Assembly (NCBI GenBank): GCA_015485155.1
Contig: WFUF01000002.1
Location: forward strand, 133,735-197,734
DNA length: 64,000 nt
Direction: 5' to 3'
Source: Robiginitomaculum sp.
GTDB lineage: Bacteria > Pseudomonadota > Alphaproteobacteria > Caulobacterales > Maricaulaceae
The notes under the pieces are model-generated. The model was given only the letters and a program-made list of their open reading frames with translations, had not been told where the DNA came from and did no database searches. The position numbers and the translations under genes were made by a program. Shown here piece after piece: positions 12,301 to 47,506 of the stretch (positions are counted from its first letter, which is position 1; every line of letters begins with the position of its first letter).

Positions 12301-12352
12301 AACAGCCTTTCACCATCAAACAGAAACTATGGCCTATTAGCTATTGTTTGGA

Positions 12353-12488: not shown

Positions 12489-12504
12489 TGGCACAGTATT
12501 GGCA
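12489..12504 (+). promoter_or_regulatory. Sigma-54 promoter of flgI
   Basis: TGGCAC and a downstream TTGGCA give GG (12490-12491), ten bases and GC (12502-12503), an exact -24/-12 spacing. The element ends 33 bp before the flgI ATG. It fits the class III flagellar promoter pattern and repeats the pattern seen before flgF. Confidence 0.78.
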
Positions 12505-12536
12505 AGGAATAACCGGATTTACAGGAGTGCCAGTCT

Positions 12537-16661: not shown

Positions 16662-16700
16662 ATCTCTAGTTCGCTAATTTTATCGAATTTGGTTAACAAA

Positions 16701-16726
16701 AGGCTCCCCCGCTGGCGGAGGAGCCT
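16701..16726 (-). terminator. Terminator downstream of the TonB-C gene
   Basis: An inverted repeat with arms AGGCTCC and GGAGCCT is followed on the minus strand by TTTGTT. It lies 25 bp after the end of the TonB-C gene and before the chemoreceptor start, so it separates the two minus-strand units. Confidence 0.7.
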
Positions 16727-16750
16727 GATTTTTTTGCAAAAATTGTGAAT

Positions 16751-17092
16751 TTACAATTTGAAAGAGATTTTCGCCTTTGCACCTTCAACCGTACTTGCAG
16801 GAGGTTCATACTTCCATTTGGAAACCGCCTTCATGGCAGCATCATCAAAAACACCCTCAGGGACGGCTTCGGCCACGGCGATATTGCTTACCTTGCCGTC
16901 GGTTTCCACGTTGTAGGTCACGATAACATGGCCTTCAATCTTGCGGCGTTCTGCACCTCGTGGATATACTGGAGCAGAGCGCTTTTTGGCTACAAGCTGG
17001 TCACTGCCGGCAAAAGCTGTTGGAGCTGCGATCATTGTGCTGGTGGCTATAGCCATGCCTGCGCACAGAGCGATTTTTCTAATAATATTCAT
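16751..17092 (-). CDS. Small TonB C-terminal-domain protein
   Basis: The 113-residue protein has a signal peptide or anchor (residues about 1-28) and then one TonB C-terminal domain (YPRGAERRKIEGHVIVTYNV, ending WKYEPPASTVEGAKAKISF). It lacks the long proline-rich spacer of classic TonB, so it is probably a periplasmic TonB-C protein rather than an energy transducer spanning the periplasm. It is encoded downstream of hfaD on the same strand, with 178 bp between. Any link to holdfast anchoring is positional only. Confidence 0.8.
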   Translation of the reverse strand: MNIIRKIALCAGMAIATSTMIAAPTAFAGSDQLVAKKRSAPVYPRGAERRKIEGHVIVTYNVETDGKVSNIAVAEAVPEGVFDDAAMKAVSKWKYEPPASTVEGAKAKISFKL

Positions 17093-17206
17093 TCTAAGAC
17101 ACCCGATTTGTTGTTATTGGCGCCTTTATTGGTCACCATTGGATGCACGTTAGCAGGCACTGGCTAAAGTGAATTAAAAGAAATTGATAAAATTTTAGCT
17201 AGTTCT

Positions 17207-17221
17207 GCATTTTTAGCAAAA
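17207..17221 (-). repeat. Fragment of the dispersed repeat B block
   Basis: The 15 bases here (GCATTTTTAGCAAAA) are identical to the inverted B block of the dispersed repeat family at 30.9, 11.3 and 61.6 kb. Only this core survives. It lies 50 bp downstream of the hfaD stop. Confidence 0.5.
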
Positions 17222-17270
17222 TCAGTGCTAATTATTGTTTTTAATCGATGTTTTGCCTAGATATCTGTTA

Positions 17271-30974: not shown

Positions 30975-32003
30975 TTAGACTCTTAGTTTTACCGTCACCG
31001 ATGTGCCTTGTGATAATTTGCTTTTGATCAGTAATCTGGCCCGGTGCCGGTTTAATATATGTTTGGTAATGGCAAGGCCAAGCCCGGTGCCGCCGATTTG
31101 GCGAGACCGTCCCTTATCCACCCTGTAGAATCGCTCGGTTAACCTGGGTATGTGCTTTGGGGCAATGCCTTCACCAATATCCTCAATTCTGACATTGACC
31201 CAGTTGGCTTTGGTTGTTTTGTGACTGATGCGAATGGTTACAGGCGTTCCCGGGCGGCTGTATTTTAAGGCATTTTCAATCAGGTTCTGGAAAACCTCGA
31301 TCAGTTCGTCATGACTGCCGCGCACCATAGGTATTTCCTCAGGAGCAAGTAATTCGACACGGCCCTTATACTCATTTTTACTGGCGGCCAGTGATTGTTC
31401 CACGGCCGGAATTATTGTTAACAGGTCGACCCTGTCATCAGGAGGCAGGTGCTCTGTTGCTTCCAGTTTTGATAAGGAGAGCAGATCTTCAATAAGGCGT
31501 GACATGCGCTCTGCTTCTCTTTGCATCAATTCAAGAAACTGCATGCGTGCACTGGCATCATTGCGAGCCGGGCCTTTTAGGGTTTCAACAGCACCAAGCA
31601 GGGCGGTTAAGGGTGATCGCAACTCATGACTGACATTGGCGACAAAAGTGCTGCGGGCTTTTTCCGCATAGCGGATGGCAGAGACATCAATCATCGTAAA
31701 CAATAAGAAACTGCTATTGGTATCGGGGCAGTTAATGGGTGCAGCATTGGCCTGAAAGCTGCGGGTGGTTTGCAGATCAAGAACAAAATCACAACTGGTG
31801 CGCCGGTTTTTCTTCAGCGCTCTGGTCAGGCATTGCAATAGTTCAGGTTGACGAAAAACCCGGACAAAATCCAGTCCGCTTATTTTATTACCCAGCATTT
31901 TATCAGCAGCTTTATTGCTTTTAAGAATGTGAAAGGAGCTATCCAGCAATAAAGCCGGAATTGAGAGCGCCTCAACCAATTGCTTTTGAGAATCCTGATG
32001 CAA
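30975..32003 (-). CDS. phoR: Phosphate regulon sensor kinase PhoR without membrane segments
   Basis: The 342-residue kinase has a PAS-like N-terminal domain (about residues 10-110), the His box FVANVSHELRSPLTALLG with His126, and the ATPase motifs NLIENALKYS and GTGLGLAITKHIL. Position and sequence fit PhoR, the kinase for PhoB. Unlike most PhoR proteins it shows no N-terminal transmembrane helix, so it should be cytoplasmic or held at the membrane by PstSCAB/PhoU. It starts 11 bp after the NIT-CRP gene. Confidence 0.9.
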   Translation of the reverse strand: MHQDSQKQLVEALSIPALLLDSSFHILKSNKAADKMLGNKISGLDFVRVFRQPELLQCLTRALKKNRRTSCDFVLDLQTTRSFQANAAPINCPDTNSSFLLFTMIDVSAIRYAEKARSTFVANVSHELRSPLTALLGAVETLKGPARNDASARMQFLELMQREAERMSRLIEDLLSLSKLEATEHLPPDDRVDLLTIIPAVEQSLAASKNEYKGRVELLAPEEIPMVRGSHDELIEVFQNLIENALKYSRPGTPVTIRISHKTTKANWVNVRIEDIGEGIAPKHIPRLTERFYRVDKGRSRQIGGTGLGLAITKHILNRHRARLLIKSKLSQGTSVTVKLRV

Positions 32004-32014
32004 GGCTTATCCTG

Positions 32015-33610
32015 TTAGCTGCTGGAGGTTCCCAGATAGGTGAGCGGGCATTCATGATCCCCCTTATGGCGGCAGGTATTGGACAGGCTTTCATCACAAT
32101 AGGCGCAAAGCGCTTTGGAGTGGGGCTGGGTAATAGTGTCATTCTTAATCTGAAAGCCTTGTGCGCGGAATTTTTTCAAGGTCCGCGAAAAAGTTTCAGG
32201 GGTCATATCCAGATATGAGGCAATCAGGGATTTTTCAAAGGGAAGTTGTATTGAGCCCAGATTATTACCGCCATCTTGTAAACCCAGTTTCAGCAAATAC
32301 CAGCCAACCCGCTCACTGGCGGTGCGCAGGCGTGATTGTTCAATCTGGTGAATCAGGTGCTGTGAACGCAAGGACAGGCTGCCGATCATGTTAAGGGCAA
32401 AGGCATTATTGTCCTGTAAAACCTGACGAACCAATGGAGCCGGTAATGACAAGAGGGTGGTTGGCTCCACCACTTGCGCGCCGGCAGCCGATGGAATGTT
32501 CAGCAAAATAGCAGCTTCCATAATTCCGTCACCGGCGCTAAGCATTTGCAAGACGGCTTCGTCGCCGGCATCACTTCCTTTGAACAGTTTGACCCAGCCA
32601 GACAGTATCAAATAATAACGTGATAAGGGTTCTGATTGTAAAAACAACAACTTGCCTTTTTCGTATTTCTGCACGCTTGCATTGGCAAGCAGGGCCATCA
32701 GCTCGGACTCTCGCAATTTGGAAAATGCCGGCAATGCCTTAATCAGCGGCATGTGCTGTTCAATATTGGTGGAAACCTGTGGTGAAGGCGATGCATCATT
32801 GGTTTTAGAAAACCTCGAATTGATCAGATCCTCGACCATTTTGGTTTCAACTATCTTCAGGCGCTCAACCTTTCCGGTCAGCAATTCAAACCATGTGGTC
32901 GGGGAAATATTCTGCAATTCTTCGGATCGGGATTTATTGGCCAGCATGTCATGCAGATCATCAACAAATTGCATGATATATCCGGAGGTAACATGTTCAA
33001 CCAGTTCACGATGGGCCGGAGCTGCAAGTGACAGGAAGGCACGCTTATAAGAGGTTTGTTCCTCTAAAAGTGTCAGCATGCGTTCGGTAAATTCGCGGTT
33101 CTTAAATACCTGGCTGCAAAACCCGTGCGCGCCCCACGCTCGTTCGCGTCCCACCCTTTCTTTCCATTGCAACAGGTTTGCATAAGCGGTCGCTGTCACA
33201 GGTGCTGTGCTGGCAATATGCAAGGCAATTTCAACCTGCACATTCAAGATCGGGCTCAAAATAGTGTAGGTGTAATGGTTTACCGCTCGCGAGAATGGCA
33301 ATTTAAGTTGTTCAACCTGTTGGCGATGATCATCAAGAGCAAGGGCGGATTCAACAATACCCAATACTTTTTGCAAGGTGGCAGCACCTATTGCTTTTTC
33401 CACTTCCGGACTGGTGCACAATTGCTCCAGCCTGCTTGCCGTTTTACTTGTTTCTTTGGTGTGCTTACGAAATTCATTGCTGAAAATCTGGCCATTGCTG
33501 TCAACATATAATGCAGCGCTGCCACGTTCTAATTGCAATTGATGGGCCAGATCCCCCAATTGCAACAGTGTGGATGCGATTACCTGTCCCAAAGTAATCT
33601 TGCTGTCCAT
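32015..33610 (-). CDS. NIT-domain/CRP-FNR fusion regulator, probable nitrate-responsive transcription factor
   Basis: The 531-residue protein combines three parts. Residues about 10-245 form a helical NIT (nitrate- and nitrite-sensing) domain with the hallmark LERGSAALYV around residues 27-36. Residues about 285-400 form a cyclic-nucleotide-binding-like CRP/FNR core; it lacks the cAMP-contacting RSA motif. A winged helix-turn-helix (SLIASYLDMTPETFSRTLKK) lies near 460-480. A C-terminal tail holds Cys502, Cys505, Cys513 and Cys521 (CX2CX7CX7C). It is divergent from the narK-narGHJI island and 11 bp upstream of phoR. NIT domains in NasR-type proteins sense nitrate directly, and NarR is a CRP-family nitrate regulator of nar genes. 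The role here is inferred from both. Confidence 0.85.
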   Translation of the reverse strand: MDSKITLGQVIASTLLQLGDLAHQLQLERGSAALYVDSNGQIFSNEFRKHTKETSKTASRLEQLCTSPEVEKAIGAATLQKVLGIVESALALDDHRQQVEQLKLPFSRAVNHYTYTILSPILNVQVEIALHIASTAPVTATAYANLLQWKERVGRERAWGAHGFCSQVFKNREFTERMLTLLEEQTSYKRAFLSLAAPAHRELVEHVTSGYIMQFVDDLHDMLANKSRSEELQNISPTTWFELLTGKVERLKIVETKMVEDLINSRFSKTNDASPSPQVSTNIEQHMPLIKALPAFSKLRESELMALLANASVQKYEKGKLLFLQSEPLSRYYLILSGWVKLFKGSDAGDEAVLQMLSAGDGIMEAAILLNIPSAAGAQVVEPTTLLSLPAPLVRQVLQDNNAFALNMIGSLSLRSQHLIHQIEQSRLRTASERVGWYLLKLGLQDGGNNLGSIQLPFEKSLIASYLDMTPETFSRTLKKFRAQGFQIKNDTITQPHSKALCAYCDESLSNTCRHKGDHECPLTYLGTSSS

Positions 33611-33793: not shown

Positions 33794-35113
33794 ATGGGAC
33801 ATCTTTCTAATGTAACACCGGGTCAACAGAATTGGGCGCTGGCGTCCTCGACTTTGGCATTTACTATCTGTTTTGCAGTCTGGACAATTTTTTCAATTAT
33901 CGGGATCAAGATAAAATCCGAATTGGGCTTAAACGATACCCAGTTCGGGATTTTGGTTGCAACGCCTATACTTACGGGCTCGTTAAGCAGGGTTTTTCTT
34001 GGGATCTGGGCTGATCAATATGGCGGACGAGTAGTTTATGCGGGGCAAATGATGCTAACGGCTCTTGCAGTTGTTTTGCTGTCATTTGCTGATAGTTATC
34101 TGATGTTTCTGGTGGCGGCCTTGGGCGTTGGACTGGCGGGTGGAAGCTTTGCCGTTGGCATTACCTATGTGTCCAAATGGTATCCGAAGGAAAAACAAGG
34201 AACCGCGCTTGGCATATTCGGTATCGGTAATGTGGGCGCTGCGATAACCAATTTTGGTGCGCCGATCCTGCTGGTAGCCGTTGGTGGAGCGTGGCAAAAT
34301 GTAGCACTGGTTTATGCTGCGGTAATCGGATCGACCGCAGTTTTATTCTTCATCTTTTCCAAGGATGATCCGGTACACCGTCATCGCCGTGAGCAGGGTA
34401 TAAAGCATGACAGTTTTCTAAAACAGCTTGCGCCGTTAAAACATATGCAGGTGTGGCGGTTCTCTTTATATTATTTCTTTGTGTTTGGCGGATATGTGGC
34501 TTTGGCGCTGTGGCTTCCCCGATATTATGTCGGGGCCTATGGTCTTGAGTTGGCTACCGCCGGTTTGCTGGCGGCGGTTTATGCTCTGCCGGGGTCTATT
34601 TTTCGGGCGCTTGGGGGCTGGCTGTCCGATAAAGTCGGTGCACGCAAGGTAATGTATTGGACGTTTACGGTGGCTTTTATATCCACGTTTTTCCTGTCTT
34701 ATCCTTCAACAGATTATATAGTTGCCGGGATTGAAGGCCCGATACGGTTTAATTTAACCATTCCGTTATGGCTGTTTGTGTCTATCACAATTGTGCTTGG
34801 CTTTTTTATGTCGCTGGGCAAGGCTGCCGTTTATAAGCACATACCGGTTTACTATCCAGATAATGTCGGTGCGGTGGGCGGAATTGTTGGTCTGATCGGT
34901 GGTTTGGGAGGTTTCTTCCTGCCCATTGCCTTTGGGATGATGAACGACCTTATAGGCGTCTGGACCAGTTGTTTCATGTTGCTTACCGTATTGATCGGCA
35001 TTGCCCTTACCTGGATGCATTTTGCCATTCAAAGACTGGAGCAGTCCAAACACCCCGAACAGCATGGCCCGCGTGATCTTCCGGAGATGGAAGACCTGCA
35101 CGGTGCCAGATAA
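33794..35113 (+). CDS. narK: Nitrate/nitrite transporter, NarK1-like
   Basis: This 439-residue major facilitator protein has 12 membrane segments and the nitrate signature GIGNVGAAITNFGAP near residues 142-156. A second, related glycine-rich stretch (GAVGGIVGLIGGLGGFFLP) lies near 357-375. It resembles NarK1-type nitrate/proton symporters. It begins 183 bp from the divergent NIT-CRP gene. I find no FNR-type box in that interval, unlike the two transporter genes that follow. Confidence 0.92.
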   Translation: MGHLSNVTPGQQNWALASSTLAFTICFAVWTIFSIIGIKIKSELGLNDTQFGILVATPILTGSLSRVFLGIWADQYGGRVVYAGQMMLTALAVVLLSFADSYLMFLVAALGVGLAGGSFAVGITYVSKWYPKEKQGTALGIFGIGNVGAAITNFGAPILLVAVGGAWQNVALVYAAVIGSTAVLFFIFSKDDPVHRHRREQGIKHDSFLKQLAPLKHMQVWRFSLYYFFVFGGYVALALWLPRYYVGAYGLELATAGLLAAVYALPGSIFRALGGWLSDKVGARKVMYWTFTVAFISTFFLSYPSTDYIVAGIEGPIRFNLTIPLWLFVSITIVLGFFMSLGKAAVYKHIPVYYPDNVGAVGGIVGLIGGLGGFFLPIAFGMMNDLIGVWTSCFMLLTVLIGIALTWMHFAIQRLEQSKHPEQHGPRDLPEMEDLHGAR

Positions 35114-35180
35114 AGTTAGGCCGAACTGCTGCGTGCTTCATGGTACATATTGTCGCATTTGCTTCAAAAGACAAAATGAT

Positions 35181-35194
35181 TTGACCTAAATCAA
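35181..35194 (+). promoter_or_regulatory. FNR/DNR-type box before the second transporter gene
   Basis: TTGACCTAAATCAA is a near-palindromic CRP/FNR-family operator, 77 bp before the chosen start of the second narK gene. It shares TTGACC and TCAA with the boxes at 36847 and 45455, which points to one regulator for all three. Confidence 0.75.
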
Positions 35195-35270
35195 ACTGTT
35201 TTGCTCAGGTTTTGCTCATAAACATGCTGGCTCAACTGGAGCCGATATGTTTTTGAAGAAGGGCGAGACA

Positions 35271-36755
35271 ATGGAGCTGCAAAACAAGGCGACACGACTC
35301 TGGGGAGATTTCCTGCGGGTCGACAAGGTACAAATTAGAACTTTTCATGTAACCTGGTTTACGTTCTTTTTATGTTTTTTCGCGTGGTTCGGCATTGCAC
35401 CCTTAATGGCAGTGGTGCGTGAGGAATTATCCTTAACTAAAGAGCAGATCGGCTGGTCGATCATTGGTGCTGTATCGGCAACTGTATTTGCCCGAATATT
35501 GATCGGTTGGTTATGTGATCGCTATGGGCCGCGTTTAACCTATACTTGGTTGTTGATTTTTGGATCGCTTCCGGTGATGGGAATTGGGCTTGCCCAGGAT
35601 TATACAACTTTTCTGATTTTCAGGATAATGATCGGGGTGATCGGCGCCAGTTTTGTAATCACCCAATATCATACTACAAACATGTTTGCGCCAAATGTGG
35701 TTGGAATGGCAAATGCCACCAGCGCCGGATGGGGTAATCTTGGTGGCGGTGTCACCCAGTTTGTCATGCCGGTGATCTTCTCGATCTTTGTGGTTGGCTT
35801 TGGCATGAGTGAAGCATTTGGCTGGCGGGCTTCAATGGTTGTTGCCGGCATAGCGATTTTGCTGGCTGCCCTTGTTTATTACACATTTACACAAGACACA
35901 CCCGATGGTTCATACAAGGAATTGCGGGCCAAGGGAAAAATGCACCATGCAGAAAGAACCACCGGCAATTTCATGCATGCACTAAAAGACTATCGTGTGT
36001 GGTTGTTGTTTCTGATTTATGCAGCATGTTTTGGCATTGAGCTGACCATTTTAGGTACGCTGGCTCTTTATATGTTTGATTATTTTGGCATGAATCTGAT
36101 CACTGCCGGCATGATTGCTGCCAGCTTTGGCCTGATGAATTTATTTGCCAGAACTCTGGGCGGCATATTCGGCGATAACTTTGCGTCCCTTTGGGGATTA
36201 AGAGGCCGGGCTACATGGTTGTTCATTGTATTATTCATTGAGGGACTGGCATTGATGCTGTTTTCGCAGATGAACGTATTGGTCCTGGCCATCCCAACCC
36301 TGTTATTATTTTCACTGTTTGTGCAAATGTCAGAGGGTGCAACTTTTTCCGTAGTTCCATTTATCTCGAAAAAATCCCTTGGAGCTGTTGCAGGTGTAGT
36401 CGGTGCCGGAGGCAATGTGGGCGCGGTATCAGCAGGCTTTTTGTTCAAGGGCGAAATGGGCTGGGATACTTCTTATCTCATTCTGGGCGCTTTGGTCACT
36501 CTTGCAGCTTTTCTGGCCTTGTTTATCCGGTTCAGCAAAGCAGATGAGATTGAGGCGGAGGAACGTTTTGATGAAGGCTATACCCGCCACAGAAAAGCTG
36601 CGGCTCGCAAACACCTTGAAGCTCTGGGCATGAGCGACGAAGAGATTGAAAAGGTCAAGGTTCTTGGCAGCCGTGAAGCCTATGCCTATCGTCGCCTTGA
36701 ATCTCTGGGTGTTGATATGAGCTCGGTAAAAATCCGCGATGAGGATAAGGAATAA
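35271..36755 (+). CDS. narK: Nitrate/nitrite transporter of the NNP family (second copy)
   Basis: The 494-residue protein has 12 transmembrane segments and a long C-terminal cytoplasmic tail (about 70 charged residues). It carries the NNP nitrate signature AGWGNLGGGVTQFVMP near residues 142-157 and GAGGNVGAVSAGF later. This branch includes NasA/NRT-like carriers and differs from its two neighbours, so it is not a recent duplication. I chose the ATG at 35271, preceded by GAAGGGCGAG, over 35247. An FNR-type box precedes it and a terminator follows. Confidence 0.9.
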   Translation: MELQNKATRLWGDFLRVDKVQIRTFHVTWFTFFLCFFAWFGIAPLMAVVREELSLTKEQIGWSIIGAVSATVFARILIGWLCDRYGPRLTYTWLLIFGSLPVMGIGLAQDYTTFLIFRIMIGVIGASFVITQYHTTNMFAPNVVGMANATSAGWGNLGGGVTQFVMPVIFSIFVVGFGMSEAFGWRASMVVAGIAILLAALVYYTFTQDTPDGSYKELRAKGKMHHAERTTGNFMHALKDYRVWLLFLIYAACFGIELTILGTLALYMFDYFGMNLITAGMIAASFGLMNLFARTLGGIFGDNFASLWGLRGRATWLFIVLFIEGLALMLFSQMNVLVLAIPTLLLFSLFVQMSEGATFSVVPFISKKSLGAVAGVVGAGGNVGAVSAGFLFKGEMGWDTSYLILGALVTLAAFLALFIRFSKADEIEAEERFDEGYTRHRKAAARKHLEALGMSDEEIEKVKVLGSREAYAYRRLESLGVDMSSVKIRDEDKE

Positions 36756-36791
36756 CCCCCCAACACCTGTATCCATATTCTATTTGCGACG

Positions 36792-36820
36792 AAAACGGGA
36801 GCCATGGCTCCCGTTTTTAT
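36792..36820 (+). terminator. Terminator after the second transporter gene
   Basis: A 26-base perfect palindrome, with half-site AAAACGGGAGCCA, is followed by a short T-run. It lies 36 bp after the stop of the second transporter and before the FNR-type box of the third. Confidence 0.85.
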
Positions 36821-36846
36821 GTGTTTTGTGAAAAAAAACAGCAGGT

Positions 36847-36860
36847 TTGACCTAGGTCAA
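36847..36860 (+). promoter_or_regulatory. Perfectly palindromic FNR/DNR-type box before narK3-narGHJI
   Basis: TTGACCTAGGTCAA is an exact 14-bp palindrome of the CRP/FNR operator class, 91 bp before the start of the third narK. No other candidate promoter element is evident before narG, so this box probably drives narK3-narGHJI as one operon. Confidence 0.82.
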
Positions 36861-36951
36861 ACGCTTACACGCAAATATGGCTCATAGAGAATCAGGCTTC
36901 ATGCGTGCGCTTTAGTGTTTTGCGCCGCAGTGTAAAAAAGGAGAGCTGGAA

Positions 36952-38589
36952 ATGGCAAAAGATTTATACGATTGGGATCCGGAAAATGAGGCCCAGTGGA
37001 AAAGCACTGGCAAGCAGATTGCCACCCGCAATCTGTGGATTTCCATTCCTGCTCTGTTGTGCGGGTTTGCGGTGTGGCTGTATTGGGGGATCATTACCGT
37101 ACAAATGATCAATCTGGGCTATGCATTTGAAAAATCCGAATTATTTACTCTAGCGGCGATTGCCGGTCTTACCGGTGCCACTTTACGAATTCCTTCAACA
37201 TTTTTCATCCGGCTGGCCGGTGGTCGCAACACAATTTTCTTAACCACTGCCTTGCTGATAATACCGGCTTTAGGCACCGGCCTGTTATTACAAAATCCTG
37301 ATACCCCACTTTGGCAGTTTCAGCTAATGGCGCTGCTCTCTGGTATTGGTGGCGGAAACTTCTCAGCCTCCATGTCCAATATATCATTCTTCTTTCCCAA
37401 AAGGGTTCAGGGTTACTCACTGGGCATGAATGCCGGATTGGGTAATTTTGGCGTAACTACCATGCAAATCCTCATCCCGCTGGTTATGACTGTGGGCATG
37501 TTTGGCGGTACATCCATGACCTTAAAAGCCACTTCGGGGACTTTGATCGGTAAAATTCCCGCAGGCACTGAAACATATTTGCATAATGCCGGATTTATCT
37601 GGGTGGCAATCCTGATCCCGATAGTGATCGCGGTCTGGATGGGCATGAATAATATCAAGGCAGATCATGTATCGCCCAATATTAAGGGGCCGCTGCCGGC
37701 ATTTGGGAAAATCTTGGGCATGCTGCTGATCGGGCTGATTACCTCAACATTTGGATTATGGCTGATGCTGCCTTCGGGCGTTGGTGGTTCCGGACTTGTT
37801 GAATCTGATGCCGCTTTTGCCAAGCTGTTGTCTTCAAAATGGATTGTCTTGCCAATAGTGGTTGTTTTAACCGTGTTTTTCCTGCGGATGCTGCCCGGCT
37901 CCATCGGCCAGAGCCTAAAACACCAATATCGTATATTTAATAATAAGCACACCTGGGCCATGACCATTATCTATACCATGACCTTTGGCTCTTTCATCGG
38001 CTATGCAGTGGCCTTTGGTTTGGCGATCAAGGTTATTTTCGGCTTCTCCCATGTGATGGTGGATGGGGTAATGGTTCATAATATCCCCAATCCCGACGGG
38101 CCGAGTGCCTTGATGTTTGCATGGACAGGGCCATTTATCGGGGCCTTGATCCGACCTGTTGGCGGTATTATTTCTGACAAGATTGGTGGTGCCAAAGTTA
38201 CCCAGATCATTTCGGTGATTATGGTAATCGCTGCCCTTGGTGTGGCCTATTTCATGAAGCAGGCCTATGCCTCGGCTACCCCGCAGGACTATTTTGTACC
38301 ATTCCTGATCCTGTTCCTGATCCTGTTTGCTGCTACTGGTATCGGAAACGGCTCGACCTTCAAGACCATTGCAGTTGTGTTTGACAAGGAACAGGCCGGG
38401 CCGGTTTTAGGCTGGACCGCAGCAATTGCCGCCTATGGAGCGTTCATTATTCCAAAGGTTTTTGGTGAACAGATCAAGGCCACCACTCCTGAATATGCGT
38501 TGTATGGGTTTGCTGCCTTCTATGTGCTGTGTATCGCGATCAACTGGTGGTTCTATTTGCGCAAGGACGCCTATGTGAAAAACCCGTAA
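36952..38589 (+). CDS. narK: Nitrate/nitrite antiporter, NarK2/NarU-like (third copy)
   Basis: The 545-residue protein has a short polar N-terminus (YDWDPENEAQWKSTG), then 12 membrane segments with extra loops. The nitrate signature NAGLGNFGVTTMQ lies near residues 158-170. It resembles NarK2/NarU-type nitrate/nitrite exchangers, which usually sit directly before narG. It is 45 bp from narG and follows a perfect FNR-type box, so it is probably the first gene of the narGHJI operon. An AGGAGAG-like site precedes the ATG. Confidence 0.93.
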   Translation: MAKDLYDWDPENEAQWKSTGKQIATRNLWISIPALLCGFAVWLYWGIITVQMINLGYAFEKSELFTLAAIAGLTGATLRIPSTFFIRLAGGRNTIFLTTALLIIPALGTGLLLQNPDTPLWQFQLMALLSGIGGGNFSASMSNISFFFPKRVQGYSLGMNAGLGNFGVTTMQILIPLVMTVGMFGGTSMTLKATSGTLIGKIPAGTETYLHNAGFIWVAILIPIVIAVWMGMNNIKADHVSPNIKGPLPAFGKILGMLLIGLITSTFGLWLMLPSGVGGSGLVESDAAFAKLLSSKWIVLPIVVVLTVFFLRMLPGSIGQSLKHQYRIFNNKHTWAMTIIYTMTFGSFIGYAVAFGLAIKVIFGFSHVMVDGVMVHNIPNPDGPSALMFAWTGPFIGALIRPVGGIISDKIGGAKVTQIISVIMVIAALGVAYFMKQAYASATPQDYFVPFLILFLILFAATGIGNGSTFKTIAVVFDKEQAGPVLGWTAAIAAYGAFIIPKVFGEQIKATTPEYALYGFAAFYVLCIAINWWFYLRKDAYVKNP

Positions 38590-38634: not shown

Positions 38635-41600
38635 ATGAGCAATTTTATTGACCGCCTGACCTATTTTTCCAAAGTAAAGGATAGGTTTTCCAATGGCCAC
38701 GGTATTACCACTACCGAAAGCAGGGATTGGGAAAAAGCTTATCGTGGCCGCTGGGCCCATGACAAGATTGTGCGCTCCACCCACGGGGTGAATTGCACAG
38801 GTTCCTGCAGTTGGAAGATTTATGTGAAAAATGGATTGGTAACCTGGGAAACCCAGCAAACTGACTATCCACGCACCCGCCCTGATCTTCCCAACCATGA
38901 GCCACGGGGTTGCTCACGTGGTGCCAGTTATTCATGGTATCTGTATTCGGCATCACGGCTTAAATTCCCGCTGATCCGCTCACGCCTGCTGCAGGCATAT
39001 CGTGCGGCCAAGTCGGAGCTGGGTGACCCGGTCTTGGCATGGGGCAGTATTGTATCAGATCCGTCAAAAGCCAATGAGTACAAGAAAATGCGTGGCCTTG
39101 GCGGCTTTGTGCGGGCCAGTTGGGATGAGGTTAATGAGATTACCGCAGCGGCTAATGTTTACACCACAAAAACCTATGGGCCGGATCGTGTATTTGGATT
39201 TTCACCGATTCCGGCAATGTCCATGGTCTCTTATGCTGCCGGTTCGCGTTACCTATCATTGATGGGCGGGGTTTGCCTTAGTTTTTATGACTGGTATTGT
39301 GATCTTCCGCCATCTTCCCCGCAAACCTGGGGTGAGCAAACAGACGTTCCTGAAAGTGCTGATTGGTATAATTCTTCGTATATTATTGCCTGGGGTTCCA
39401 ATGTGCCGCAAACCCGCACGCCGGATGCGCATTTTTTCACCGAGGTACGTTATAAGGGCACCAAAACCGTATCGGTAACACCGGATTATTCAGAAGTGGC
39501 AAAGCTGACTGATATCTGGCTGAACCCTCGTCAGGGCACTGATTCGGCAATGGCCATGGCTATGGGTCATGTGGTGTTCAAAGAGTTTCATCTTGGCGGC
39601 AAGTCTGAATATTTTACTGATTATGTGCGAAATTATTCCGACATGCCGATGCAAATTCTGCTTGAGAAACAAGGAGAACATTATATCCCCTCGCGTAATT
39701 TGCGGGCCTCAGATTTTGATAATGATCTGGGTGTTGAAAATAATTCTGAGTGGAAATCAGTAGTTTTTGATGAAAGCTCCAAAACCCACCGGGTGCCAAA
39801 TGGAACTATTGGCTCCAGATGGGGTGAGGAAGGAAAATGGAATCTTGAGGCCAAGGACAGTGTCAGTGGCGAAGATATCTGGCCAAATTTAAGCAATATC
39901 GACAAGCCGGACGAAGTTTTAGATGTAGCTTTTCCATATTTTGGCAATCAGCAGCATGAGAGCAAAATCTTTGCTCATACAGATCATGAAAGCGTGCAGG
40001 TGCGCAAACTTCCGGTGCGAAAAGTCGTCTTGAAAGATGGCAGTGAAGCCTATGTGGCAACCGTTTATGACTTAATGGCGGCCAATTATGGTATTGACCG
40101 TGGTCTGGGCGGAGAAAACACCGCCAGTGACTTTAACGATGATGGCCCCTATACGCCAAAATGGGCAGAAAATATTACCGGGGTATCGGCAGACAAAATT
40201 ATTCAGGTTGCTCGTGAATTTGCTGATAATGCCGACAAGACCCGTGGCCGCAGCATGGTCATTCTGGGTGCTGCAATCAATCACTGGTACCATATGGACA
40301 TGACCTATCGCGGGATTATGAACCTGTTGATATTGTGTGGTTGTATTGGCAAATCCGGCGGCGGCTGGGCTCATTATGTGGGACAGGAGAAACTGCGTCC
40401 GCAAACCGGCTGGTTGCCGCTGGCCTTTGGTCTGGACTGGAGCCGTCCGCCACGTCAGATGAATTCAACCTCGTTTTTCTATAATCACTCCAATCAGTGG
40501 CGTTATGAAAAACTGGGGGTTACTGAAATACTGTCTCCATTGGCTGATGCCGGTAAATGGCAGGACTATTCGTTGATTGATTGCAATGTGCGTTCAGAGC
40601 GTATGGGCTGGCTGCCTTCGGCTCCGCAATTGGATGAAAATCCGCTGGGTCTGGCCGCCAAGGCCAAAAATGCCGGTCAATCTACCAAGGATTATGTGGT
40701 TGCAAGCCTGCAAAAAGGTGATTTGCAATTTGCCGCTGAAGATCCTGATCGCGAGGATAATTTCCCGCGCAACCTGTTTGTGTGGCGTTCCAATATTCTG
40801 GGTTCTTCTGGCAAGGGTCATGAATACATGTTGCGGCATTTGCTGGGCGCACAAAATGGCATGATGAGTGATGATCTGGATGGAATGGGTGCGGACAAAC
40901 CATCTGAGGTGCAATGGCATGAGGCAGCCCCTGAAGGGAAACTGGATCTGGTGGTCACTCTTGATTTTCGCATGTCGACCACTGCGGTATATTCTGACAT
41001 CGTATTGCCTACTGCTACCTGGTACGAAAAGAATGATCTTAACACTTCGGACATGCACCCGTTCATTCACCCGCTTAGCCGCGCCGTTGATCCGGCATGG
41101 GAAAGTCGCTCCGATTGGGATATTTTCAAAGGTCTGGCCAAAAAATTCTCTGAATTGTGCGTCGGGCATCTGGGCGTTGAAACTGATCTGGTAACGGTTC
41201 CGATCCTGCACGACACTCCAGGGGAGTTGGGGCAGGCGCTGGAAGTTAAGGACTGGAAGAAAGGCGAGTGTGACCCGGTTCCCGGTAAATCCATGCCAAA
41301 TCTTGTGGAGGTCGAACGTGACTATCCCAACCTGTACAAGAAATTCACCTCACTTGGGCCATTGATGGCCAAGCTTGGAAATGGCGGCAAAGGCGTTGCA
41401 TGGAACACCGAGGCCGAGGTCGACTTGCTGGCAAAGCTCAATAAAACTGTAAGAGCCGAAGGCGTTTCCCAAGGTTTACCAAGGATTGAGAGCGATATTG
41501 ATGCTACCGAGGTGGTATTGTCGCTGGCTCCTGAAACCAATGGCGAGGTCGCAGTAAAGGCCTGGGCTTCCCTGTCAAAAGTAACTGGTCGTGATCATAC

Positions 41601-42414
41601 GCATCTGGCCCGCCCCAAGGAAGATGAAAAAATCCGTTTCAGGGATGTGCAGGCGCAACCGCGCAAGATTATTTCTTCACCCACATGGTCAGGTCTGGAA
41701 GATGAGCATGTCAGCTATAATGCCTGTTATACCAATGTGCATGAGTTGATACCGTGGCGCACTTTAACCGGGCGTCAGCAATTCTATCAGGATCATGAAT
41801 GGATGCGTGATTTTGGCGAGGGATTGTGTGTGTATAAACCGCCTATCTCCACCCGAACCATCACTAATGCAGTCAAGGAGCGCGGCGGTGATGTCAAGCA
41901 GATTGCCTTGAACTGGATCACCCCGCATCAGAAATGGGGCATTCACTCAACCTATTCAGATAATCTGCTGATGTTGACCATGAACCGTGGCGGCCCTGTA
42001 GTATGGCTATCGGAGGTGGATGCGCAAAAAGTGGATATTCAGGATAATGACTGGATTGAGCTTTATAATGTAAATGGTGCGATCACCGCGCGTGCAGTAG
42101 TCAGTCAGCGTGTGCCAGAGGGCATGTGCATGATGTATCATGCCCAGGAAAAGACCATGAACACGCCCGGAAGCCGCATTACCGGAAAACGGGGCGGTAT
42201 CCATAATTCTGTCACCAAGGCAGTGGTGAAGCCGACCCATATGATTGGCGGTTATGCCCAGCTTTCATGGGGCTTTAACTATTATGGAACCGTAGGCTCC
42301 AATCGGGATGAATTTGTAATTTTACGTAAGACCAACACGGTGGACTGGATGGAGGAGCCTTATGAAGAAGGGCAACCGATCAACATGCCGGGAAATGAGG
42401 AGGTAGGCCAATGA
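38635..42414 (+). CDS. narG: Respiratory nitrate reductase alpha subunit NarG
   Basis: The 1259-residue protein is the molybdenum bis-MGD catalytic subunit of membrane-bound cytoplasm-facing nitrate reductase. The N-terminal FS0 iron-sulfur motif is present with His50, Cys54, Cys58 and Cys93 (STHGVNCTGSCSW and RGCSRGAS). The molybdenum-ligand aspartate lies in SADWYNSSYI. There is no Tat signal, as expected for NarG. It reduces nitrate to nitrite with electrons from NarH and NarI. The stop overlaps the narH start by 4 bp. Confidence 0.97.
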   Translation: MSNFIDRLTYFSKVKDRFSNGHGITTTESRDWEKAYRGRWAHDKIVRSTHGVNCTGSCSWKIYVKNGLVTWETQQTDYPRTRPDLPNHEPRGCSRGASYSWYLYSASRLKFPLIRSRLLQAYRAAKSELGDPVLAWGSIVSDPSKANEYKKMRGLGGFVRASWDEVNEITAAANVYTTKTYGPDRVFGFSPIPAMSMVSYAAGSRYLSLMGGVCLSFYDWYCDLPPSSPQTWGEQTDVPESADWYNSSYIIAWGSNVPQTRTPDAHFFTEVRYKGTKTVSVTPDYSEVAKLTDIWLNPRQGTDSAMAMAMGHVVFKEFHLGGKSEYFTDYVRNYSDMPMQILLEKQGEHYIPSRNLRASDFDNDLGVENNSEWKSVVFDESSKTHRVPNGTIGSRWGEEGKWNLEAKDSVSGEDIWPNLSNIDKPDEVLDVAFPYFGNQQHESKIFAHTDHESVQVRKLPVRKVVLKDGSEAYVATVYDLMAANYGIDRGLGGENTASDFNDDGPYTPKWAENITGVSADKIIQVAREFADNADKTRGRSMVILGAAINHWYHMDMTYRGIMNLLILCGCIGKSGGGWAHYVGQEKLRPQTGWLPLAFGLDWSRPPRQMNSTSFFYNHSNQWRYEKLGVTEILSPLADAGKWQDYSLIDCNVRSERMGWLPSAPQLDENPLGLAAKAKNAGQSTKDYVVASLQKGDLQFAAEDPDREDNFPRNLFVWRSNILGSSGKGHEYMLRHLLGAQNGMMSDDLDGMGADKPSEVQWHEAAPEGKLDLVVTLDFRMSTTAVYSDIVLPTATWYEKNDLNTSDMHPFIHPLSRAVDPAWESRSDWDIFKGLAKKFSELCVGHLGVETDLVTVPILHDTPGELGQALEVKDWKKGECDPVPGKSMPNLVEVERDYPNLYKKFTSLGPLMAKLGNGGKGVAWNTEAEVDLLAKLNKTVRAEGVSQGLPRIESDIDATEVVLSLAPETNGEVAVKAWASLSKVTGRDHTHLARPKEDEKIRFRDVQAQPRKIISSPTWSGLEDEHVSYNACYTNVHELIPWRTLTGRQQFYQDHEWMRDFGEGLCVYKPPISTRTITNAVKERGGDVKQIALNWITPHQKWGIHSTYSDNLLMLTMNRGGPVVWLSEVDAQKVDIQDNDWIELYNVNGAITARAVVSQRVPEGMCMMYHAQEKTMNTPGSRITGKRGGIHNSVTKAVVKPTHMIGGYAQLSWGFNYYGTVGSNRDEFVILRKTNTVDWMEEPYEEGQPINMPGNEEVGQ

Positions 42415-43976
42415 CTATTCGCGCACAAATTGGCATGGTTCTGAATCTGGACAAATGTATTGGCTGTCATACCTGCTCTATTACCTGCAAAAATGTATGG
42501 ACGAGCCGTGGCGGTGTTGAATATGCATGGTTCAACAATGTGGAAAGCAAGCCAGGTGTTGGTTATCCTCGAAACTGGGAAGATCAATCAGAATGGAAAG
42601 GCGGCTGGGAGCTTAGCAAATCCGGCAAGCTAAAGCCGAAAATAGGTGGCAAACTTGGCGTCTTGTCAAATATTTTTGCCAATCCTGATCTGCCGCTGAT
42701 TGACGACTATTATGAGCCGTTCACTTATGAGTATGATCATCTGAAAACCTCAAAAGAGAGCAAAACCGTACCCACCGCCCGGATGAAGTCGGCAATTACC
42801 GGCAAGTTCAAGGAAAAACCGGACTGGGGTGTGAACTGGGAGGAAATCCTTGGCGGCGAGTTTGAAAAACGCTCAAAGGATTATAATTTTGACCAGATTC
42901 AAAAAGACATTTACGGCGAGTTTGAAAATACATTTATGATGTATCTGCCGCGTTTGTGCGAGCACTGCTTAAACCCGGCCTGTGTGGCTTCATGCCCATC
43001 TGGCGCGATTTACAAGCGTGAGGAAGATGGAATTGTCCTGATTGACCAGGATAAGTGCCGGGGATGGCGCATGTGTGTCTCTGGTTGTCCATACAAGAAA
43101 ATATATTTTAACTGGCAGTCCGGCAAATCAGAAAAATGCACCTTCTGCTATCCTCGCATTGAGGCCGGAGAGCCAACTGTTTGTTCCGAAACCTGCGTTG
43201 GCCGTATCAGATATCTTGGAGTTCTGCTTTATGATGCGGATAAAATCGAAGAAGCAGCTTCGGCGAGGGAAGAAACTGATCTGTATCAAAGTCAGTGCGA
43301 TTTGTTTCTCGACCCTCATGATCCGGAAGTAATCGAGCAGGCATTGGCCGATGGTGTGCCGCAAAGCTGGATTGAGGGAGCGCAAAACTCGCCAGTTTAC
43401 AAGATGGCGATGGAGTGGAAAATCGCTTTCCCGCTGCATCCTGAATATCGCACCTTGCCGATGGTATGGTATGTTCCGCCGCTCTCGCCAGTGCAGCAGG
43501 CCTCCGAAGCCGGATTGCTGGAAACAGATGGTGTCTTGCCGGATGTTCGCTCGCTTAGAATACCGAACAAATATCTGGCCAATATGCTTACCGCCGGCGA
43601 TGAAGAGCCGATCATCAGCGCTCTGGAGCGAATGATGGCCATGCGTAATTATATGCGCGGCAAAAGCGTTGATGGTGTGGAAAACACCAGAATTCTGGAA
43701 CAGGTCGGCATGTCCAAAGACGAAATGGACGACATGTATCAATTGATGGCGATTGCCAATTATGAAGATCGTTTTGTAATTCCTAGCAATCATCGTGAAT
43801 ATGCCGGTGACGGGCCGTTTGATGCTGATATTGCCTTTGCCACCCGTTCTGAATGTGGGTTCTCGTTCGGCGATGGCTGCAATACCGGCAGCCCTGCCAA
43901 AACCAATTTATTTGGCACCCAGACCCATGCCAACACCATGAGCGGCAAGCCGCGCAAATCGTCAGGAGATCAATAA
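42411..43976 (+). CDS. narH: Respiratory nitrate reductase beta subunit NarH
   Basis: The 521-residue iron-sulfur subunit carries electrons from NarI heme to NarG. Four cysteine clusters are visible: CIGCHTCSITC near residues 16-26, CEHCLNPACVASC, CRGWRMCVSGC and CTFCYPRIEAG. The Trp in CRGWRMC, in place of a cysteine, marks the 3Fe-4S centre. The gene overlaps narG by 4 bp and narJ by 1 bp (TAATG), so the operon is tightly coupled. Confidence 0.97.
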   Translation: MTIRAQIGMVLNLDKCIGCHTCSITCKNVWTSRGGVEYAWFNNVESKPGVGYPRNWEDQSEWKGGWELSKSGKLKPKIGGKLGVLSNIFANPDLPLIDDYYEPFTYEYDHLKTSKESKTVPTARMKSAITGKFKEKPDWGVNWEEILGGEFEKRSKDYNFDQIQKDIYGEFENTFMMYLPRLCEHCLNPACVASCPSGAIYKREEDGIVLIDQDKCRGWRMCVSGCPYKKIYFNWQSGKSEKCTFCYPRIEAGEPTVCSETCVGRIRYLGVLLYDADKIEEAASAREETDLYQSQCDLFLDPHDPEVIEQALADGVPQSWIEGAQNSPVYKMAMEWKIAFPLHPEYRTLPMVWYVPPLSPVQQASEAGLLETDGVLPDVRSLRIPNKYLANMLTAGDEEPIISALERMMAMRNYMRGKSVDGVENTRILEQVGMSKDEMDDMYQLMAIANYEDRFVIPSNHREYAGDGPFDADIAFATRSECGFSFGDGCNTGSPAKTNLFGTQTHANTMSGKPRKSSGDQ

Positions 43977-44653
43977 TGCGTAGTTTTCGGGTTCTTGCCC
44001 ATTTGCTAAGTTATCCGCAAAGCCAGTGGATCTCGCATATGGACGAGCTAAAACAGGTTCTGCTTGAGGAAAAACTGCTCAAGGGCAGAGCTTTGAAGAA
44101 CGTAATGGCGTTTATGGATGATCTTGCTGATACCGATTTGATGGCGGCACAGGAGATCTATGTGGAGCTGTTTGACCGGGGCCGGGCGCACTGCTTGCAC
44201 TTGTTTGAACATGTGCACGGTGAAAGCAGGTTTCGCGGGCAGGCCATGGTTGATCTGGCCGACAGATATAAATCAAAGGGACTGGAAATAGGCACTGGTG
44301 AATTGCCTGACTATCTGCCGTTAATGCTTGAATTTATTTCAATCAGCGCGGCTGAGGAGGGACTGGAGTTGTTGGAGCAGTCTGCACCTGTCATTGCCAC
44401 GATTGGTGAAAAGCTAAAACGCCAGAAATCCGGATATGCCAGCGTGTTTGCCGCGATTGTTTCCATGTCAGGAGCCAGATTAAACGAGGCTGATATCAAA
44501 AAGGCAGCCGATGCTGCCCTGCCGGAAATCAAGACGCTCGATGAGCTGGACGAGCAATGGCAAGAGCCGGAAGCCTTTGGCGGCGCTCCTGAATGTGGCA
44601 CTTGTCCGCCGCATAAAACTCCGATCACAGCCCCAAGTCAGGGAGGCATTTAA
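43976..44653 (+). CDS. narJ: Nitrate reductase assembly chaperone NarJ
   Basis: This 225-residue protein is the dedicated chaperone that inserts the molybdenum cofactor into NarG before membrane docking. It has the NarJ/DmsD helical fold, with YVELFDRGRAHCLHLFEHVHGESR-type core (visible as LHLFEHVHGES) near residues 70-82 and DYLPLMLEFIS near 110. I chose the ATG at 43976, which overlaps the narH stop in TAATG; the frame extends upstream inside narH. The next gene, narI, also overlaps by 1 bp. Confidence 0.94.
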   Translation: MRSFRVLAHLLSYPQSQWISHMDELKQVLLEEKLLKGRALKNVMAFMDDLADTDLMAAQEIYVELFDRGRAHCLHLFEHVHGESRFRGQAMVDLADRYKSKGLEIGTGELPDYLPLMLEFISISAAEEGLELLEQSAPVIATIGEKLKRQKSGYASVFAAIVSMSGARLNEADIKKAADAALPEIKTLDELDEQWQEPEAFGGAPECGTCPPHKTPITAPSQGGI

Positions 44654-45333
44654 TGGCCGAATACATCAACACATTTTTGTTTGGAATTTACCCCTATATC
44701 GCCATTTTTGTTATGATTGTTGGCTCAATTCTGCGCTATGATCAAAACCCGTATTCATGGAAGGCTGATAGCTCGCAATTATTGCATTCCAAGGGTTTGC
44801 GCCTGGGTAACAATCTGTTTCACATAGGCATTTTGCTGTTATTTATCGGGCATTTTGTTGGGCTGTTAACACCTCATTGGGTGTATGAACCATTTATCAG
44901 CGCCGGCCAGAAACAAATTCTGGCAATGAGTGCAGGGGGCCTTTTTGGAAGCATGGCCTTTGTCGGCATGTCGATACTGATCTGGCGACGCACTACACAA
45001 GATCGGGTGCGGGCCACTACCAAATTCATGGATATGGCCATTTTGCTGATTTTATTTGTGCAATTGATACTTGGCATGTTGACGATTCCGGTTAGTGCCA
45101 AACATCTTGATGGCTCTTCGATGATTGCCTTGGCTGAATGGGCTCAGCACATTGTGACCTTTCGTGGTGGCGCTGCTGATTTTATCATGGACGAGGCGCT
45201 TATTTTTAAGCTGCATATCTTTTTGGGATTAACAATCTTCCTTATTTTCCCGTTTACCAGGCTGGTACACATGGTCAGCGCACCACTGAAATATCTGTTG
45301 CGCTCCGGTTATCAGGTGGTACGCAAAAGATAA
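44653..45333 (+). CDS. narI: Respiratory nitrate reductase gamma subunit NarI
   Basis: The 226-residue membrane protein is the diheme cytochrome b subunit that oxidises quinol. It has five transmembrane helices. The paired heme ligands are visible in NNLFHIGILLLFIGHFVG and, near the C-terminus, in KLHIFLGLTIF and RLVHMVSAP. It completes narGHJI and is followed by a clear terminator. Confidence 0.96.
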   Translation: MAEYINTFLFGIYPYIAIFVMIVGSILRYDQNPYSWKADSSQLLHSKGLRLGNNLFHIGILLLFIGHFVGLLTPHWVYEPFISAGQKQILAMSAGGLFGSMAFVGMSILIWRRTTQDRVRATTKFMDMAILLILFVQLILGMLTIPVSAKHLDGSSMIALAEWAQHIVTFRGGAADFIMDEALIFKLHIFLGLTIFLIFPFTRLVHMVSAPLKYLLRSGYQVVRKR

Positions 45334-45454: not shown

Positions 45455-45468
45455 TTGACCCAGGTCAA
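45455..45468 (+). promoter_or_regulatory. FNR/DNR-type box before the nar-linked porin
   Basis: TTGACCCAGGTCAA differs from the perfect box at 36847 at one base. It lies 62 bp before the porin ATG and after the nar terminator, so the porin has its own promoter under the same type of regulator. Confidence 0.78.
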
Positions 45469-45530
45469 ACTTATTCTTTCGGGCGATCAGTATAACAGGG
45501 CAGGTTTATTCAACACGACAGGAAAAAGTC

Positions 45531-46805
45531 ATGCGCTATCTTACTATTGCCGCTATTGCCCCTTTGCTCTTAGGCTCCATGTCCGTTTCTGCCCTGGCAG
45601 ATAATGCCAAGGCCTCCAAAGATGACAAGGCTTCCAAAGAGGCGACAAGTCTGGCTGAGGCCATTACCAGGGGTAAGGCCAATTTAACCTTCCGCTATCG
45701 GGCGGAGAATGTTGATCAGGACGGGTTTGCAGACGATGCCTTTGCCTCGACCCTGCGCACCCGGTTAAAATATACTACAGGCACGTTTAACGGTTTTTTC
45801 GGCGTGCTTGAGTTTGACGATGTCTCCAATATTGGTGGCGGCGATTTTAACAGTACTGTAAATGGTAAAACTTCCTATCCGGTGATTGCTGATCCGCAGA
45901 TTACCGAGGTAAATCAGGCATATCTGGCCTATACCGGTATTGACAAGACCACGCTTATGGCGGGCCGGGTAGCCATGAATATGAACAATCAGCGATTTGT
46001 GGGTACTGTGGGCTGGCGGCAGAATGATCAGACATGGGACATGACCGGCTTTATCAATAAGTCCATTGATAACCTGACCCTTACCGGTGCCTATGTGTGG
46101 AATGTGAACCGGATTTTTGGTAATGATCACCCCTTGGGCGATCTTGATACCAACACCTTTATTGTGGACGCCAAATATACCGGGCTGGGCTTTGGAACGG
46201 TGACTGCCTATGGTTTGATTATTGATTTGAATGATGCGCCGGTTGTTGGCCTTTCCAGCAAGACTTTCGGGATTCGCTTTGATGGCAATAATAAAATTGG
46301 CAATGGTGATTTGTCATTTCTTTATGAAGTTGAATTTGCCAACCAAACCGACAATGCTGGCAACCCAACTGACTTTAGTGCCAATTATCTGAACCTGTCT
46401 GCGGGCCTGTCTGCTCATGGGTTTACCGCAAAAATAGGTTTTGAGCGCCTGGGGAGTGATGGCGGATCAATAGCTTTTCAAACTCCATTAGCCACTTTGC
46501 ACAAATTTAATGGCTGGTCAGACAAGTTTCTGGCTACCCCTGCCGGGGGGCTGGATGATTTTTATGGCTCCATCAGCTATAAGGTACAAGGTGACAGCCC
46601 GCTAAAAGGTTTGAAATTTGATGCGATCTATCATGATTTTTCAGCCGCATCAGGCGGAGCCTCCTATGGCCGCGAGCTTAATTTGCAGGTTTCCAAAAAA
46701 ATCAGCAAAAACTACTATGCCGGCCTGAAATTTGCGGATTATCAGACCCGTGGGTTTTCCACTGATACCCAGAAAATCTGGTTTACTCTCGGCGCTAATT
46801 TTTAA
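45531..46805 (+). CDS. Outer-membrane porin linked to the nar operon
   Basis: The 424-residue protein has a signal peptide (cleavage after ALA near residue 23), a short Lys/Asp/Ser-rich segment and then alternating beta strands of a 16- to 18-stranded barrel. It ends with Phe (TLGANF), the usual outer-membrane assembly signal. The first strand region reads LTFRYRAENVDQDGF. The family looks like alginate-export/OprD-type porins, but the substrate cannot be read. Its FNR-type box and position after narI suggest a role in nitrate or nitrite passage. Confidence 0.82.
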   Translation: MRYLTIAAIAPLLLGSMSVSALADNAKASKDDKASKEATSLAEAITRGKANLTFRYRAENVDQDGFADDAFASTLRTRLKYTTGTFNGFFGVLEFDDVSNIGGGDFNSTVNGKTSYPVIADPQITEVNQAYLAYTGIDKTTLMAGRVAMNMNNQRFVGTVGWRQNDQTWDMTGFINKSIDNLTLTGAYVWNVNRIFGNDHPLGDLDTNTFIVDAKYTGLGFGTVTAYGLIIDLNDAPVVGLSSKTFGIRFDGNNKIGNGDLSFLYEVEFANQTDNAGNPTDFSANYLNLSAGLSAHGFTAKIGFERLGSDGGSIAFQTPLATLHKFNGWSDKFLATPAGGLDDFYGSISYKVQGDSPLKGLKFDAIYHDFSAASGGASYGRELNLQVSKKISKNYYAGLKFADYQTRGFSTDTQKIWFTLGANF

Positions 46806-46853: not shown

Positions 46854-47101
46854 GATGATCAGAGCACTTCCAGTTCAAGATGAACCGGAATTTACTAAAA
46901 CTCTTCATGTGCCACATTCGCCTGGCACCTTTAACTTACTGCACAACAAAATTTGCGCCAATTAACAGCATTGAATTTAATAATTCTGATCTGGTAATTG
47001 TCACAGGCTGTACTTATGTAACACCTGTAACTGTATTATCCTGTTGCGATCAGGCTTTTACTCTGCTTAAGGTTCGTAATTACATAATAGTGAGGTGTAC
47101 T

Positions 47102-47506
47102 ATGGAAAACGATAAACAATTCCTAGTGTTAACAACAGATATAGTAGTTGCGTATCTGGAGAATAACCCTGTTGCGTCCACGGAAATAGCCAAAATTATT
47201 CAAAACACCTATTCGGCTCTTCGTAATTGTGATGAGGGCGCTGATGATGCCAAATTGAGCCCTGGACGCCCGGCAGTTGCAATAAACAAATCAGTTTTTG
47301 ACGAATATATCATCTGTCTTGAGGATGGGCAAAAGTTCAAATCCCTAAAGCGGCATTTGCGCAGCAAGTATGATATGTCTCCTGAGGAATATCGTCAAAA
47401 ATGGATGTTGCCTGCCAATTACCCGATGGTTGCGCCGCAATATGCGCGTCGCCGCTCTGAGCTTGCCAAGCAAATTGGCCTGGGTCGCAGTCGCAAGAAA
47501 AAGTAA
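47102..47506 (+). CDS. mucR: MucR-family transcriptional regulator
   Basis: The 134-residue protein is a Ros/MucR regulator, a histone-like DNA-binding family of alphaproteobacteria that controls exopolysaccharide, motility and, in Caulobacter, cell-cycle genes together with SciP. The zinc-finger region is CLEDGQKFKSLKRHLRSKY, followed by MSPEEYRQKW. The first Cys, Asp and His ligands are present. The position of the second finger histidine is Lys or Tyr here, so metal binding may be altered. I chose the ATG at 47102 with GAGGTG upstream; the frame extends 74 codons further without family similarity. Confidence 0.9.
   Translation: MENDKQFLVLTTDIVVAYLENNPVASTEIAKIIQNTYSALRNCDEGADDAKLSPGRPAVAINKSVFDEYIICLEDGQKFKSLKRHLRSKYDMSPEEYRQKWMLPANYPMVAPQYARRRSELAKQIGLGRSRKKK

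Follow-up and report, generated by a model that had tools for sequence, protein, structure and literature searches.

A NIT-CRP/FNR fusion protein with a C-terminal four-cysteine tail as a candidate nitrate- and redox-responsive activator of nar genes in Robiginitomaculum

What does a transcription factor sense, and which genes does it control, if a putative nitrate sensor is built into its own polypeptide? This question is raised by a gene located in a window of 64,000 nucleotides of Robiginitomaculum sp. DNA (contig WFUF01000002.1), the product of which joins a NIT domain to a CRP/FNR-type module and which is divergent from a set of nar genes. Alphaproteobacteria are generally without NarXL and use NarR and FnrP instead, nitrate control of nar in this group being ascribed mainly to NarR (PMC8139620); the suggestion, made in an earlier note on this DNA, that the fusion replaces NarXL thus draws the wrong contrast.

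Domain architecture and predicted nitrate pocket

According to the ORF list of the window, the open reading frame at 32015-33610 (minus strand, ATG start) encodes a protein of 531 aa, the features of which are as follows.

32015-33610, minus strand: gene of the NIT-CRP-Cys4 regulator (open reading frame; Pfam; same fusion at 77 loci)
32825-33553, minus strand: NIT domain, residues 20-262 (PF08376, E 3.4e-36; match to NasR 4AKK by sequence and fold)
33524-33535, minus strand: first predicted nitrate-pocket motif, Q26-L-E-R29 (aligned with NasR QCER)
33140-33151, minus strand: second predicted nitrate-pocket motif, G154-R-E-R157 (aligned with NasR GQER)
32408-32671, minus strand: CRP/FNR effector-domain core, residues 314-401 (PF00027, E 1.1e-14)
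32105-32314, minus strand: winged helix HTH_Crp_2, residues 433-502 (PF13545, E 3.3e-11)
32183-32197, minus strand: recognition-helix signature E472-T-F-S475-R476, compare ETISR of FNR (no variation at E, S or R among 81 sequences; alignment with E. coli FNR)
32048-32107, minus strand: C502-x2-C505-x7-C513-x7-C521, candidate Fe-S or zinc site (all 80 complete sequences)

The domain search confirmed the reading of the earlier note that NIT is fused to a CRP/FNR module, as three Pfam domains were detected, all well above their cut-offs: NIT (PF08376) with 126.2 bits against a cut-off of 24.9 and with profile positions 1-238 of 239 covered, cNMP_binding (PF00027) with 54.6 bits against 27.5, and HTH_Crp_2 (PF13545) with 43.4 bits against 27. 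The LERGSAALYV hallmark is located at residues 27-36, where that note had placed it, and the NIT match, which it had expected at residues 10-245, covers residues 20-262. The cNMP_binding-type core together with the HTH_Crp winged helix, recognised by both Pfam and fold, assigns the protein to the CRP/FNR superfamily; no ANTAR domain was matched in it by Pfam, the output end being occupied by HTH_Crp_2. Sensor domain and DNA-binding domain share one polypeptide, in keeping with the one-component logic that had been proposed.

An AlphaFold model of the regulator, generated from 71 relatives (mean pLDDT 82.9, pTM 0.64), matched NasR (4akk_A) with a Z-score of 29.3 over 270 aligned residues and A. 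fischeri FNR with a Z-score of 23.0. Additionally, 4AKK (NasR) was the only solved structure matched by the N-terminus in the sequence search (E 1.1e-9). The lists of structure matches obtained with the whole model (Foldseek) were dominated by CRP/FNR chains, and the absence of other folds from them is uninformative. cAMP was rejected as an effector: of the residues E72, R82 and S83 in the phosphate-binding cassette of E. coli CRP, only E72 is kept, the cAMP-contacting pair R82 and S83 being replaced by two alanines. The N-terminal cysteine cluster of E. coli FNR and the internal cysteine of its core are likewise absent, the alignment revealing no cysteine between residues 165 and 502 of the regulator.

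A scan of genome contigs identified 79 loci, 77 of which carry the same three-domain fusion and two of which are NIT-less. As these three domains recur at 77 loci elsewhere and the predicted structure matches both NasR and FNR, mis-assembly or a chance fusion is ruled out. The hosts of the fusion are mainly Robiginitomaculum-like bacteria, Kordiimonas, Emcibacter, Asticcacaulis and Pseudaquidulcibacter, with one gammaproteobacterium, Exilibacterium; the closest match to the window is a Robiginitomaculum contig (L040, 97% identity), and viral contigs yielded no relatives of the regulator. By genome sampling the fusion is uncommon overall, being present in 8 of 200 sampled genomes of the order besides that of the window, and in at most three of about 400 genomes when the sampling was widened to the class or the phylum (the window genome counted). 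A divergent narK is located within 600 bp at 63 of the 77 fusion loci, usually with narG and narH beyond it, and several of the remaining fusion loci stop at a contig edge.

In NasR and related sensors, nitrate is held between two arginines of G-x-x-R-type motifs, NasR having a glutamine in place of one glycine (PMC8199190), and E175 and R176 of NasR are predicted nitrate-pocket residues (PMC7496416). Both NasR pocket motifs are kept in the regulator, Q26, E28 and R29 being invariant in all 71 aligned rows and R157 being found in 78 of the 79 sequences covering that position; sensing of nitrate or nitrite is thus likely, with nitrate itself, as judged from the sequence, the likely ligand. A NIT domain alone is no proof of nitrate binding, since nitrate and nitrite both failed to bind to that of PA4520 (PMC6381276).

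The nar cluster and its candidate operators

The placement of the regulator gene, which had been described as divergent from narK-narGHJI, proved to be correct: opposite it lie three genes for narK-type transporters and then narGHJI, together with candidate promoter elements.

33794-35113, plus strand: narK1, the divergent neighbour; intergenic region shared with the regulator gene, without box
35181-35194, plus strand: candidate operator TTGACCTAAATCAA before narK2
35217-35222, plus strand: -10-like CATAAA, spaced from the narK2 box as in class II promoters (position of the conserved A in relatives)
35247-36755, plus strand: narK2
36847-36860, plus strand: candidate operator TTGACCTAGGTCAA before narK3-narGHJI
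36883-36888, plus strand: -10-like CATAGA at class II spacing
36952-38589, plus strand: narK3 (NarU-like)
38635-42414, plus strand: narG
42411-43976, plus strand: narH
43853-44653, plus strand: narJ, longest open reading frame; translation may in fact begin further downstream
44653-45333, plus strand: narI
45455-45468, plus strand: candidate operator TTGACCCAGGTCAA before gene 45531
45491-45496, plus strand: -10-like TATAAC at class II spacing
45531-46805, plus strand: gene 45531, porin-like protein with signal peptide, an outer-membrane barrel as judged by its sequence; likely a member of the regulon

The tandem NarK-type genes before narG, of which there are usually two in relatives, number three in the window (33794-38589), with operators before the second and third. 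Gene 45531 gave no Pfam or NCBIfam match and is possibly a nitrate porin; its relatives adjoin NIT-CRP genes at several Emcibacteraceae/Kordiimonadaceae loci, and at the locus L083 two NIT-CRP genes (7989-9569 and 11083-12648) flank a homologue of it. Downstream of the nar cluster, the window encodes a ROS/MUCR-type transcription regulator (46880-47506, plus strand). A PhoR-type histidine kinase (30975-32003, minus strand, 342 aa) is encoded 11 bp downstream of the regulator gene; it is apparently without an N-terminal membrane segment and has pst-type phosphate transport genes after it, and most other NIT-CRP genes show no such neighbour.

The box TTGAY-N4-RTCAA was found in 60 of the 64 regions between a NIT-CRP gene and narK, against an average of 0.08 in dinucleotide shuffles; 63 of these regions come from the loci above and one from the window, and many, being from related species, are not independent. 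None of eight control patterns, among them the two half-sites spaced by 3, 5 or 6, gave a match in the 64 regions. The box keeps to a narrow range of distances from narK, mostly 52-93 bp. Downstream of it, conservation is highest at an A that is shared by 43 of 54 aligned sites and lies 30.5 bp away from the centre of the box. With a box centred at -41.5, the arrangement known from FNR class II activation, this A would fall at position -11, which is the most conserved base of the -10 element in sigma-70 promoters. Furthermore, an ExxSR recognition helix of the FNR type and a TTGAT-type box are both present for the NIT-CRP protein.

The window itself represents one of the four intergenic regions without a box, the best partial match between the regulator gene and narK1 being no better than those in shuffles, and the same region of the near twin L040 is likewise devoid of one. 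As the box is missing in both, narK1 and the regulator gene may be under other control. Autoregulation through an exact box is unsupported in the window, where no such box is located next to the regulator gene. The link to nar drawn in the earlier note is upheld with respect to adjacency; the boxes, missing from the shared intergenic region, precede narK2, narK3-narGHJI and gene 45531.

Across the genome of 2.39 Mb, seven exact boxes were counted versus nine for the reversed control, so the count alone is uninformative and the case rests on position: three of the seven lie outside coding sequence, all of them in the nar cluster. The remaining four lie inside other coding regions, and a wider regulon based on them was rejected on this ground.

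The NIT-CRP regulator is the sole HTH_Crp_2 protein found in the genome (rated 99.99% complete), which holds a single NIT domain. The one other cNMP_binding protein in this genome, of 620 aa, reads as a patatin-like phospholipase (as judged from its sequence) and not as a transcription factor, and no further CRP/FNR regulator was found there. PilJ domains (NarX/NarQ/McpN type) were found neither in the window's genome nor in ten other fusion genomes, the latter result being no evidence of replacement, as only fusion genomes were covered. Some CRP/FNR proteins repress, and the regulator could in principle be a nar repressor or act mainly on other target genes, the boxes belonging to another regulator. 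The class II activator geometry, and the finding of no other CRP/FNR regulator in the genome to which the boxes might belong, make this a most improbable explanation; activation of the targets, rather than repression, is very likely.

NIT-less relatives and the C-terminal cysteine tail

Two NIT-less paralogues in Robiginitomaculum (L116:7977-8744 and L118:7971-8717) have kept the CRP core and the cysteines and are divergent from ccoNOP-ccoG-ccoI, the oxidase genes with their assembly genes, with a TTGAY box in that intergenic region. On the tree they are placed inside the NIT-bearing clade, a position which suggests that they have lost NIT. More distant NIT-less relatives are located beside narK-narGHJI (L133, L134, L136, L137 and L138) or cco (L131), with boxes; Cys4 is intact in most of these, the protein at L138:5435-6220 having a tyrosine at the second cysteine (LCQFYD). 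The tree requires three changes of the NIT label, for which one gain and two losses could account; being quickly built and having long branches, it is not regarded as proving a single origin of the fusion. At L138, where the nar regulator is without NIT, a NIT protein that reads as a chemoreceptor is encoded just after narI (16593-18473), such that the NIT sensor is separate from, and not fused to, the nar regulator.

These relatives bear on the possibility that the NIT domain of the fusion no longer senses nitrate, binding another anion or merely aiding dimer formation, and that the protein is an FNR analogue with O2/NO input via Cys4. While such a role would be in line with the non-binding PA4520 domain and with the NIT-less relatives that take the same position beside nar, we consider it improbable: both arginine motifs hardly vary among about 78 proteins, although the most distant of these are only 31-40% identical to the window protein, and in most genomes the fusion is still found next to nar, the close relatives that appear to have lost NIT being found at cco. 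A nitrate-sensing NIT domain is thus retained as the preferred reading, and the tail is considered below as a probable second input.

This tail was overlooked in the earlier interpretation, of which the fusion and the nar adjacency stand. All four cysteines are kept in 80 of 80 complete sequences (81 in all), the spacing being 2-7-7 in 76 of the 80, and the remaining two cysteines of the regulator, 65 and 165, are variable among relatives. Residues 511-531 were modelled by AlphaFold with low confidence (pLDDT 33-70). Conservation of this degree points to metal binding at the tail, which we regard as highly probable. Conserved cysteines in a C-terminal extension are also found in Gram-positive-type Fnr, and those of B. 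subtilis and B. cereus hold an oxygen-labile [4Fe-4S] cluster in this extension (PMC3520743). By analogy they provide a precedent for the location of the tail, though their spacing, C-x2-C-x4-C, differs from that of the regulator.

The pattern C-x2-C-x7-C-x7-C also fits a zinc site, in which case the protein could be an activator responsive to nitrate only, with NIT sensing nitrate, Cys4 holding a structural, non-sensory zinc, and oxygen control being exerted elsewhere or absent. Near-rigid spacing would be expected of a structural site, and the conserved NIT motifs are equally in agreement with such a protein; it is nevertheless an unlikely alternative, given that the genome yielded no second CRP/FNR protein through which oxygen might control nar, and that the cysteines are kept in NIT-less relatives at cbb3 oxidase genes. 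Genes for cbb3 oxidase are typically oxygen-controlled. Because the core and tail without NIT sit at genes typically under low-oxygen control, we infer that an O2/NO input through the tail is to be favoured, and our assignment of Cys4, made on sequence grounds, leans towards an Fe-S site with such an input.

Proposed mechanism and comparison with known systems

The best explanation, which we regard as probable, is that the protein represents a nitrate-plus-redox activator of nar at class II promoters. It would act in the cytoplasm as a one-component protein that activates respiratory nitrate reduction, and it would be expected to form a dimer, to bind TTGAY-N4-RTCAA via its FNR-type recognition helix and to activate from near -41.5 (class II), with narK2, narK3-narGHJI and the porin-like gene as its predicted direct targets in the window genome. 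Nitrate and/or nitrite would be held between the arginines of the QxxR and GxxR motifs of NIT, and the ligand-bound domain may relieve inhibition of the CRP/FNR core or orient it correctly. The Cys4 tail is probably metal-binding, an O2/NO-labile Fe-S cluster being more likely than structural zinc, and nar would be on only with nitrate present and oxygen low. More tentatively, the regulator may constitute an AND switch, in which NIT would report nitrate, a C-terminal Cys4 Fe-S site of a new type would report no oxygen (or NO), and both would feed a shared FNR-type head at class II promoters; it would then do alone the work of FnrP and NarR of Paracoccus, and the NIT-less relatives at cbb3 genes would presumably have the oxygen input only. 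A merging of the NarR and FnrP roles in the regulator is more likely than a replacement of NarXL.

The earlier statement that no characterised protein of this architecture is known was borne out in the open-access literature, in which none was found (subscription journals lying outside the scope of the search). The NIT and CRP/FNR parts are known; what appears to be new is that they are joined, and that a C-terminal Cys4 and a conserved set of operators go with them. The NIT-CRP family would represent a second solution to nar control in alphaproteobacteria, with a recognisable sensor domain, so that a single purified protein would suffice to assay nitrate sensing and transcription activation. 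Through this family the NIT fold is connected with DNA binding, the CRP/FNR proteins of Gram-negatives gain a candidate Fe-S site at the C-terminus, and the natural domain-loss relatives make the nitrate and redox inputs separable.

Among known systems, the NIT-ANTAR antiterminator NasR of Klebsiella oxytoca is likewise a one-component protein, the cytoplasmic N-terminus of which is a NIT domain of the same fold and pocket motifs; however, its output is an RNA-binding ANTAR domain and its target assimilatory nas, whereas the regulator described here carries a CRP/FNR DNA-binding module with a Cys4 tail and lies at respiratory nar. The NarX/NarQ-NarL/P two-component systems exert the same nitrate-responsive control of nar, but the regulator keeps sensor and DNA-binding domain in one polypeptide. 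B. subtilis Fnr, also a member of the CRP/FNR family, similarly has an extended C-terminus with cysteines, three of which ligate its oxygen-labile cluster (PMC3520743); there the ligands are C-x2-C-x4-C plus an Asp, while in the regulator, which additionally has NIT, the cluster is only predicted, at C-x2-C-x7-C-x7-C. FNR and FnrP share with it the core fold, the ExxSR helix and the TTGAY box at class II spacing, yet have N-terminal cysteines, in contrast to the four cysteines after the winged helix and the added NIT domain of the regulator. NarR is not known to carry a NIT domain. In Paracoccus, NarR is a CRP/FNR-type activator of narGHJI that is also alphaproteobacterial and responds to nitrate/nitrite, but it is without an Fe-S cluster (PMC8139620).
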